Assembly: GCA_029882915.1 (NCBI GenBank)
Contig: JAOUJZ010000009.1
Location: forward strand, 1-52,894
Source: Gammaproteobacteria bacterium
GTDB taxonomy: Bacteria > Pseudomonadota > Gammaproteobacteria > Nitrosococcales > Methylophagaceae
Direction of reading: 5' to 3'
DNA length: 52,894 nucleotides
A program made the translations under genes and the position numbers. Shown here one piece after another: positions 42,245 to 45,108 of this stretch. The first letter of the stretch is position 1. Each line of letters begins with the position of its first letter. The notes under the pieces are model-generated. The model was not told where the DNA came from. It was given only the letters and a program-made list of their open reading frames with translations, and made no database searches.

Positions 42245-42991
42245 CTAGCGCACGTTGCTCCAACCAGACCCTACATCCAGATTCTCAAACCAGGATAAGA
42301 AGCGACCCACATCATCGCCTTTGAATATGGCACCGTGCTGTGGACATAACATTTCTACATCACGTCTACGTACTTCAGCAATCCAGCGTGCTTTTGCGGT
42401 ATTAGATGGCATCCAGCGACGATGGAAATATTCCATACAATTAGCATGCTCAGCAAAGTCAGTGACAAATAAATCAGTGTGATCTTCGGGCAATAAGGCT
42501 GCCCCAATATCGCCTGAGAAGAAGATTTTTGCTTCGGGATCGTAAATTGATAAATTGCCTGGTGAGTGTAAATAATGTGCTGGCACCACTTCCAGATCAC
42601 GTCCTCCAACAGTAATTACGCCACCTTCGTCAGGAATAGGTCGCATATTCTCCAGACTGACACCAAAGTGAGTAATGAAACTTACCCAGATTTTGGGTAC
42701 ATAAACTAGTAATTTTGGATTAGCCTGTATCCAGAATGATAATGATGAAATAACATCTGGATCCTGATGTGAAGCAAAAATTGCTTCGACATTCGCCAGA
42801 TCAAAATGTTTGGAAAACTCCGCTGCTACTACCGAGAAGTTTTCAACGCCGCCCGGATCTAGTAATAAACCGCGGCCATTACTTTGTATTAAATACTGGT
42901 TAGTATCAATCACTTCCTCACGCCGATCTGGGTCTCTTCCCATGACCATCCAACTATGAGTATTTTTTTTATAAAGTTGTTCAACGCGCAT
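42245..42991 (-). CDS. Metallo-beta-lactamase-fold di-iron protein, ODP/FprA-like
   Basis: The 248-residue protein is a flavodiiron-type beta-lactamase domain without the flavodoxin module. The metal ligands align with FprA: H75-Q-D77-P-D79, H142 in LHSPGN, D161 in FSGDIG and H219 in CPQHG; the second ligand is aspartate where FprA has glutamate. Oxygen-binding di-iron proteins (ODP) of this kind are known to signal through chemoreceptors in Treponema. It overlaps the chemoreceptor-like gene upstream by 11 bases, so they are cotranslated. An oxygen- or NO-sensing role is the best inference. Confidence 0.82.
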   Translation of the reverse strand: MRVEQLYKKNTHSWMVMGRDPDRREEVIDTNQYLIQSNGRGLLLDPGGVENFSVVAAEFSKHFDLANVEAIFASHQDPDVISSLSFWIQANPKLLVYVPKIWVSFITHFGVSLENMRPIPDEGGVITVGGRDLEVVPAHYLHSPGNLSIYDPEAKIFFSGDIGAALLPEDHTDLFVTDFAEHANCMEYFHRRWMPSNTAKARWIAEVRRRDVEMLCPQHGAIFKGDDVGRFLSWFENLDVGSGWSNVR

Positions 42992-43685
42992 ATAATAAAT
43001 TCCTCATATTAATTTGTTGTTTTTCCATCGCTTCAGACAAATCACGTAACAGTGAACTTTGCTTTGCTGATTGCTGGCCTAATTGGCTCACTAATTCTCG
43101 CAGCATTGAAGATACTGCTTCAAAGCTCACCCCATATTCACCAGAACTTGCCGCTTCGACTGAGGAACAAACAGCCAGATATTCCCCTTTTTTCACAAGC
43201 GTTGATACGGGTGATAATAAATTAATCAACATACCCAACGAACGGCTCAATTGATTATTGTTATCGCGTAAGTCGCCCGCTATTTTTTTCTGTCCCTTCG
43301 CAAAGAAATTAGGCGATGTAATCATGCTCTCATCATCTTCAAAATGACTTAAAACCTCGCCAAAAGTCACATAACTTGAAAATAATCTTGCTAGATTAGA
43401 TGCCAGCAATACAATCTCACCGATAATTTTTTGTGTATCATCAATACAGTTTGAGACATCATCCCCAAGCAATTGTATGTCTTGAGTTAACACTCTAAAA
43501 GCATCACCCTCAGATCCAGCGCGTGCTGCAGAACTGACTGCATTAGATGACAGCAAATGCATTTGTTTTGCCAATGGTACCAACTTATGCAATTCAGTAT
43601 TCAAGCTGACACACTGACGGAAAATCGTATCGTACTCTTCCCCCATATTGCGGGTATATATATTTTCGTTCACTTGCGGCCTCAT
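42981..43685 (-). CDS. Soluble protein with two degenerate chemoreceptor-tip motifs
   Basis: From the ATG at 43685, 18 nt after ubiA, it is 234 residues with no membrane segment and high helix content. Residues 42-79 (LLSSNAVSSAARAGSEGDAF onward) and 168-206 (CSSVEAASSGEYGVSFEAV) each resemble the hairpin tip of a methyl-accepting protein, whose core reads [20 protein letters not shown]. The conserved EAAR glutamate is lost in the first copy and the arginine is lost in the second. It may be a degenerate receptor fragment or an adaptor. The ODP-like gene follows with overlap. Confidence 0.7.
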   Translation of the reverse strand: MRPQVNENIYTRNMGEEYDTIFRQCVSLNTELHKLVPLAKQMHLLSSNAVSSAARAGSEGDAFRVLTQDIQLLGDDVSNCIDDTQKIIGEIVLLASNLARLFSSYVTFGEVLSHFEDDESMITSPNFFAKGQKKIAGDLRDNNNQLSRSLGMLINLLSPVSTLVKKGEYLAVCSSVEAASSGEYGVSFEAVSSMLRELVSQLGQQSAKQSSLLRDLSEAMEKQQINMRNLLYAR

Positions 43686-43702: not shown

Positions 43703-44569
43703 TCAGGCTAAACCGTAGTGGACTGCAATTCCTATGAACAATGCAGCCCCCACCCAATTATTGTTGATAAAAGCTTGCAAACACTGTGCCGGTTCTCTAT
43801 TTATTACTAATTTTTGCTGATAAACAAATAAACCAAGAACAATTAATAAGCCAATATAGTAAATAAAACTTATTGCCAATTGGCTTCCGACCAACAGCAT
43901 AACCATTAGAAAGCTCAGTTGCAAAATGCCAATAATTAATCTGTCATCATCACCGAACAAAATCGCCGTGGACTTTACTCCAACTAGCAGGTCGTCTTCC
44001 CTGTCGGCCATTGCATAAAATGTATCATAAATTGTAGCCCACAATATATTAGCCAGAAATAATAACCATGCAATGCTAGGCACAGTATTGCTTTGAGCAG
44101 AAAATGCCATTGGAATAGCCCAGCCAAATGCCGCTCCTAAATACAGTTGCGGCAAATAAGTAAAGCGTTTCATGAAGGGATAAGTTATAGCCAAAAACAA
44201 ACCTACCAGTGACATCCATATCGTCATTGTATTAAGCTGTAATACCAGAAAAAATGCCAACAAACCAAGACCAGAAAATGCCATTAATGCTTGTTTAGGC
44301 TGTAAAGTCCCTGTTGCCAATGGTCGACTTGATGTTCTGCTGATTAACCCATCAATATTTCTATCTGCAAAGTCATTAATCACACAGCCAGCACTACGCA
44401 TAATGGTGACTCCTAGTGCAAATATCACCAGTACTTTTAAATCCGGCATGCCTTCAGCAGCGATCCACAATGCTGATAACGTTGGCCATAACAATAACAA
44501 AATACCGATCGGGCGATCCAAACGCATGAGTTGTACATAAGGTTTTAATCTTTCACGTAATGTTTGCAC
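43703..44569 (-). CDS. ubiA: 4-hydroxybenzoate octaprenyltransferase
   Basis: This 288-residue integral membrane enzyme prenylates 4-hydroxybenzoate in ubiquinone synthesis. The aspartate-rich motifs are NDFADRNID (65-73) and the second, [12 protein letters not shown], near 185-197. Several hydrophobic helices span the rest. Its ATG overlaps the ubiC stop by one base, making a ubiC-ubiA unit. Confidence 0.95.
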
Positions 44570-45108
44570 TATTCACTCCAGTCTAAAGTCGGCAAAAATA
44601 TCTCATTTACCAGCAATATTTTGCCGCTTAAATAGAAATGTGATCGTCTACCCCATAATTCATCTGGACGAACTGCTTCTTCTAATACTGCCACTTCATA
44701 TAACCATTGGCCAGGTTTTAGACAGGCAATCTCGATAGGGCCGCGTTTTACCGATGGATCTGTAAATAACAGTTCTCCAAGCGATTTATTACCCAATGCT
44801 TCAAAACGATGCTTCATCACCTGAAAGGTAGCCAATGGAACCACAGTGCGTGCATAGACATTGGCCTTATCACCATCCATCAATTTAACTTCACGTTGGT
44901 AAGCCATCTGTGTCATTGAAGTTCCTAAATCCAGACATTCATCAGGTAACGGCTTCATCCAGTGATTTCCTAATAACTGCACTGAAAAACCATGTTTATT
45001 GTGCGCCTTCAATCGTCTTGTCAATGAACCTGTATCAGTGAGCCACGAGGCCATTTCAGGTGGCATTAAACGCCGTTGCGGCTGATACCAACGCGTCCAA
45101 TGTTTCAT
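44569..45108 (-). CDS. ubiC: Chorismate lyase
   Basis: The 179-residue soluble enzyme cleaves chorismate to 4-hydroxybenzoate and pyruvate. It has the family shape with [13 protein letters not shown] near residues 24-36, YARTVVPL at 85-92 and [21 protein letters not shown] near the C-terminus; the Arg and Glu are as expected. It starts 21 nt after the recG stop and runs into ubiA. The product is the substrate of the next enzyme. Confidence 0.93.

Follow-up and report, generated by a model that had tools for sequence, protein, structure and literature searches.

A candidate natural single-chain chemoreceptor with two diverged tips, encoded beside an ODP-type di-iron protein in Gammaproteobacteria

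The locus described here raises the question of what a soluble protein carrying two chemoreceptor-like tips in one chain would do next to a di-iron protein of the ODP type, with which its gene overlaps. The window (the whole stretch of DNA analysed, 52,894 nucleotides) is part of a 1.94 Mb assembly; among relatives with a name, Methylophaga and MAGs related to it come closest. We consider it likely that the two-tip protein is a natural single-chain receptor "dimer" through which an oxygen-sensing ODP feeds into CheA/CheW arrays. The features concerned are as follows, tip residues being given in Tsr numbering.

42245-42991, minus strand: ODP gene, 248 amino acids (open reading frame, PF19583).
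42981-43685, minus strand: gene of the two-tip, single-chain chemoreceptor-like protein, 234 amino acids, ATG at 43685 (open reading frame, PF00015 twice, relatives, AF2 model); an alternative upstream TTG start at 43757 would give 258 amino acids.
43464-43574, minus strand: tip 1 (residues 38-74), turn at residues 57-60, with the equivalents of N381 and R388 kept and those of E385 and E391 lacking.
43074-43193, minus strand: tip 2 (residues 165-204), turn at residue 181, with the equivalents of E385 and E391 kept and those of N381 and R388 lacking.
42981-42991, minus strand: overlap of the two-tip and ODP genes, 11 nucleotides.
43703-44569, minus strand: ubiA-like gene (named from its sequence), directly upstream of the two-tip gene with a gap of 17 nucleotides.

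The first-pass annotation had called the product of the first gene an ODP-like di-iron protein lacking a flavodoxin domain, and both statements stood. It scores 240.3 bits against Pfam PF19583 (cut-off 27.2), which places it inside this profile family, and its best solved matches are the oxygen-binding di-iron proteins 6qrq (E 1.6e-66) and 6qnm (4.5e-64); Pfam scanning found no flavodoxin domain. The complete set of di-iron ligands is present (H75, D77, D79, H142, D161 and H219), each of the six being kept in 46 or 47 of the 47 aligned subfamily sequences, window included, and in 21/21 sequences of a second ODP group. By homology, the window ODP would be a di-iron protein of the metallo-beta-lactamase family that binds iron and oxygen. 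None of the observations points in particular to NO, the other ligand considered in the first reading. In genome G070, a gene for a roadblock/LC7 protein (L099 4540-5010, minus strand; PF03259, 3e-14) directly precedes an ODP of the second group, hinting that this other group may have different partners.

The partner is related to methyl-accepting chemotaxis proteins (MCPs) through two separate stretches. PF00015 (MCPsignal) matches it twice (48.4 bits, cut-off 34.6), and the segments 42-79 and 168-206, initially singled out as tip-like, coincide with conserved blocks. No membrane helix is expected, as already annotated, the highest 19-residue hydropathy being 1.29; two MCP units are thus found within one soluble chain, as in a natural single-chain soluble MCP. 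Of eight two-tip proteins of relatives scanned against Pfam, two pass the MCPsignal cut-off, four match below it, and those of L118 and L146 show no MCPsignal match. From 22 window-type proteins, one profile was made for each half and compared with a profile of ordinary MCP tips; the hhalign probabilities for half 1 and half 2 were 96 and 96, against 5 and 0.3 with the reversed MCP profile as control. Since the match is forward and hardly reversed, the likeness exceeds generic coiled-coil similarity. A PHROGs search returned no useful match.

An AF2 model computed from the window protein and 14 relatives (15 close sequences) is of moderate confidence (mean pLDDT 78.3, pTM 0.65). The first-pass annotation had suggested structure prediction on the 234-residue protein as a check; the model displays no unrelated fold, and its helices (9-33/35-56, 61-116, 125-180 and 182-233) leave turns at both tip motifs. 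This is the pattern expected of two hairpins joined away from their tips, from which we infer how they might pack. The predicted arms are about 50 residues long and, given how far from the tip the methylation sites of Tsr lie, would seem too short for methylation helices. In Foldseek searches with this model, designed (single-chain) four-helix bundles came first, no MCP was near the top, and an MCPB-MCPC model appeared at rank 38; this neither supports nor excludes an MCP fold, because solved MCP chains are single hairpins.

The two genes overlap, in accordance with the initial description, and the 11-nt overlap suggests translational coupling. It recurs in 8 of the 15 family loci having both genes (L009, which is the window's own, L012, L013, L014, L015, L017, L021 and L024); at the other seven, the longest ODP frame begins further upstream in six and the ODP is cut short in L010. 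A conserved LYAR at the C-terminus of the two-tip protein was rejected as a functional site: the ODP start codon overlaps it, and its conservation may be due to the overlap of the genes. On the other side, ubiC- and ubiA-like genes (window 43703-45108) precede the two-tip gene, which keeps this position in the relatives compared, even where the ODP is lost. Through this neighbourhood, quinone synthesis and oxygen sensing could possibly be tied.

Conservation of the pair across genomes, which the first reading had left to be checked, is extensive for one class of ODP. A search over 369 genomes of the class listed 92 ODP places. Where the ODP matched at E 1e-68 or better, a two-tip gene lay directly upstream in 32/32, the match being weak in L109 (4e-9) and the called ODP start lying inside the two-tip gene in a few of these loci. 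Among the weaker places (37 of 60 examined), the partner was present in 1/37, beside a truncated ODP in G144. Adding a second G023 pair and the five loci that a search of 398 genomes across the phylum yielded brings the collection to 39 distinct pairs, on top of which the window's family supplies another 14. Partnerless ODP loci number 37, of which 35 come from the class search and one each from G024 and G527. Full-length ODPs are split by similarity to the window ODP, paired ones at 5e-70 or better and unpaired ones at 9.7e-65 or weaker. Over the 39 pairs, ODP distances correlate with two-tip distances at 0.87 (maximum of 1000 permutations 0.32), a value that shared species history alone would also raise. 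The two genes thus show the coupling of an ODP with a soluble receptor.

What distinguishes the two-tip protein is the unequal endowment of its halves. The Tsr numbering of E385, R388 and F396 is supported by the accessible part of PMC8144572, and N381 as a trimer contact by the title of a reference in the accessible part of PMC8466855; the remaining positions were assigned by offset. We distinguish three ODP-paired subfamilies, W (window-type), K and M (both from the class search), the halves being designated 1 and 2. Over all proteins, half 1 has the N381 equivalent in 66/66 and E385 in 0/66, and half 2 has E385 in 60/66 and N381 in 13/66. In the 57 rows whose columns were assigned by profile alignment to ordinary MCPs (all distinct, though some resemble one another closely; M2 aligns weakly, at probability 52), half 1 carries N381 in 57, E385 in none, R388 in 51 and E391 in 8, and half 2 carries N381 in 13, E385 in 53, R388 in 9 and E391 in 34. 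Nine pairs outside those profiles behave alike, with N381 in 9/9 and E385 in 0/9 first halves, and E385 in 7/9 and N381 in 0/9 second halves. There are exceptions: E391 of half 2 occurs in 0/8 proteins of subfamily M and in 1/8 of a genus without ODP, and N381 is still present in half 2 of 10/19 K proteins. All four residues are found in 19/19 ordinary MCP rows (18 distinct), a full score that is partly built in, as these were picked out of 21 matches by motif (E/K at 385, R/K at 388); of the two matches left out, L095 has the complete signature and L006 is not readable that way. No single hairpin of the two-tip protein unites N381, E385, R388 and E391, each half being devoid of a part, and for this reason we do not file it as an ordinary MCP.

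The halves also seem to have long been separate. First halves match one another across subfamilies with profile probabilities of 92 (W1-K1), 95 (K1-M1) and 31 (W1-M1), and second halves with 94 (W2-K2), 86 (W2-M2) and 97 (K2-M2), against 7, 2 and 0.4 between half 1 and half 2 inside one subfamily. The picture is less sharp in the ODP-less genus, where half 1 reaches 81 with the half 2 of that genus and 28-60 with the remaining half 2 profiles. Most halves resemble the corresponding half of a distant subfamily more than they resemble the other half of their own chain, which points to one old duplication followed by lasting divergence. The original description of a duplicated, degenerate tip holds for the duplication; the "degenerate" tips, as far as aligned residues tell, are better read as asymmetric, with substitutions that are conserved and half-specific over many families.

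Linkage to chemotaxis genes, also raised at the outset, was confirmed for some relatives and not for the window's own pair, which has no adjoining che genes. By Pfam, L153 carries on one strand CheA, MCP, CheW, two-tip, ODP, CheR, CheD, CheB and CheW, with a second CheA further on; its two-tip protein matches PF00015 only at E 0.0026, under the cut-off. Similar orders were recognized by protein similarity in L146, L148, L151, L164 and L166, CheA directly precedes the two-tip gene in L168 and L169, and CheW, CheR, CheB and MCP genes lie upstream in L095 and L156. The CheA of these loci agrees with PF02895 places in L146, L148, L151, L153, L164, L166, L168 and L169; a 1418-aa frame of L156, considered as CheA, was discarded, as PF02895 does not bear it out. 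Within 5 kb, 12/32 paired loci have a che-labelled gene versus 1/21 others, counts in which two of the 12 loci have only an MCP, some stretches are short and some labels (CheB among them) are cross-hits to receiver domains. In the gene orders recognized by similarity, CheB labels include such cross-hits too, and the two-tip label was given to two full-length MCPs. By subfamily, a che-labelled gene is near in 8/9 M loci examined, which lie in che clusters with CheA, and in few K loci, most W and K loci not being near such genes. At two K-type loci, the gene immediately before the two-tip gene encodes a SpoIIE phosphatase (L095 12704-14401, where it also encodes a response-regulator domain, and L055 2856-3575); with only two loci, a general link to this phosphatase was rejected.

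At the level of genomes, the window's own encodes CheA and CheW, together with eight MCPs that pass the Pfam cut-off. The CheA dimerisation domain (PF02895) is present in 35/35 bearers outside the family and 14/15 within it, versus 79/114 in the whole set of relatives, and CheW in 31/31 genomes, 30 of them bearers. G009 keeps the pair and PF02895 was not found there; it has weaker kinase matches, probably of ChpA type (1156-aa frame), and was set aside as evidence of independence from CheA, as these other matches are present.

Two-tip genes also exist alone, in five genomes of one genus and at eight loci of a sister genus. As they persist after ODP loss, they can serve without it. The distance between the N381 columns of the two tips is 123-125 in the 17 ODP-paired W proteins and 121 in 18/19 K proteins, with 123 in the remaining one; eight M proteins span 113-121. 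In the ODP-less sister genus it is 79 in 8/8, and in the other ODP-less proteins 110 and 106 (two of the first-mentioned genus) or 124, 124 and 128 (three others). That the chain is shortened away from its tips once ODP has been lost hints that ODP may make contact at the open end. In the sister-genus proteins (L030, L032-L038), the first tip hardly varies and the stretch between the tips is shorter by about 45 residues; keeping these tips without ODP, they must have another role or input. Decayed copies were seen in L138, L141 and L142 (genomes G013, G007 and G001), and the only CheA-like match of G013 is an 1874-aa frame, probably of ChpA type.

We propose that ODP would be the sensor of an input module for a CheA/CheW system. 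The two-tip chain, having neither a transmembrane segment nor a HAMP domain, would fold two short hairpins, joined opposite their tips, into a four-helix bundle as an ordinary homodimer does. The state of ODP would reach the tips probably via the open end of this bundle, and the tips would join the receptor array and tune CheA. In this scheme, we infer the four-helix packing, the ODP contact, the docking into arrays and the ligand.

Other readings have to be set against this proposal. The three decayed copies would fit a functionless MCP duplicate on its way out, which we regard as very improbable given that dN/dS is 0.056-0.069 in five ODP-paired comparisons (dS near 2, near saturation, in two) and that the tip pattern is kept across families; these low ratios also speak against the tips being simply degenerate. 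Constraint is weaker in three ODP-less comparisons (0.10, 0.11 and 0.39). The two-tip protein might instead bind CheW or ODP only and never enter arrays, with some other output possible where W and K pairs stand outside che operons. The majority of the loci examined in these two subfamilies are indeed not beside che genes, and the SpoIIE gene stands before two K loci; CheA-containing clusters at almost all M loci and CheA in every bearer outside the family go against such an arrangement, which we judge quite unlikely.

Two further possibilities concern how the tips would be used. In a sharper form of the single-chain dimer proposal, half 1 would always sit at the trimer axis and half 2 always face CheA/CheW, in one fixed orientation. 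The reciprocal retention in 66 proteins (N381 and mostly R388 in half 1, E385 and often E391 in half 2) argues for it, as does the arrangement given in the accessible part of PMC4692393, where the trimer contacts fall to one dimer subunit, leaving the other able to meet CheA/CheW. According to the part of PMC8144572 available, however, E385 pairs with R388 of the neighbouring dimer, so that a half lacking E385 would be one lock short at the axis, and the M, ODP-less and K exceptions in half 2 do not follow the scheme; we hold this sharper form as tentative. Because the lock partners are divided between the halves, R388 of half 1 could alternatively pair with an E385 supplied by a neighbour, either by half 2 of another two-tip molecule or by an ordinary receptor; the outcome would be a lattice of its own or trimers that have to be mixed. 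Such a heterotypic lock, suggested by aligned residues, appears unlikely, half 1 having R388 in 51/57 rows and not in all.

The single-chain dimer proposal, if correct, bears on a general difficulty: in ordinary arrays the same residues stand in two environments, so that what they do at the trimer axis is hard to tell apart from what they do at the CheA/CheW face. With different contact residues in each half, a natural family would make these roles readable from sequence and testable by single changes. ODP-type intracellular sensing, known from Treponema and also occurring in Thermotoga, would extend to many gammaproteobacterial families, with some pairs inside a che operon.

Among known proteins, the soluble receptor of Thermotoga maritima (3g67/3g6b) is likewise an MCP-type signalling chain, 3g67 matching tip 1 at E 7.6e-4. 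Its 213-residue chain has one matched stretch, whereas the two-tip protein holds two tips in 234 residues; we take this receptor to be Tm14, with a neighbouring ODP. In Treponema denticola, the ODP TDE2498 is genetically coupled to the MCP homologue TDE2496, which is able to modulate CheA, according to the accessible text of PMC7666581, where it is also noted that the array offers ODP no evident site. By its description, TDE2496 resembles the two-tip protein as an ODP-coupled MCP homologue without transmembrane or sensing modules; no doubled tip is described in that text, whereas here one chain bears two diverged tips. Muok et al. 2019, as cited in PMC6978683, report that ODP binds iron and oxygen and contacts its receptors.

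The first-pass annotation knew of no described protein with this layout. Natural soluble single-chain MCP signalling domains are nevertheless mentioned, with roles unknown, in the accessible part of PMC4692393, and from that description the two-tip protein is of the same kind. No two-tip ODP partner was found in our literature searches, and the pair may still have been described. Within the literature searched, the kind of protein is already known, and what is added here is its pairing with ODP, the reciprocal tip residues and the breadth of their distribution. The same portion of PMC4692393 presents an engineered single-chain Tsr, whose receptor subunits are covalently joined as in the two-tip protein, with which the inner and the outer subunit can be manipulated independently. 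It is conceivable, if rather doubtful, that the two-tip protein is an obligate asymmetric chemoreceptor, its halves permanently specialised for the trimer axis and for CheA/CheW and driven by the ODP oxygen sensor at the open end. Nature would then separate the inner and outer roles of the trimer-contact residues, which those authors engineered Tsr to separate, with the difference that the engineered chain consists of two Tsr subunits, whereas the halves of the two-tip protein differ by long divergence.
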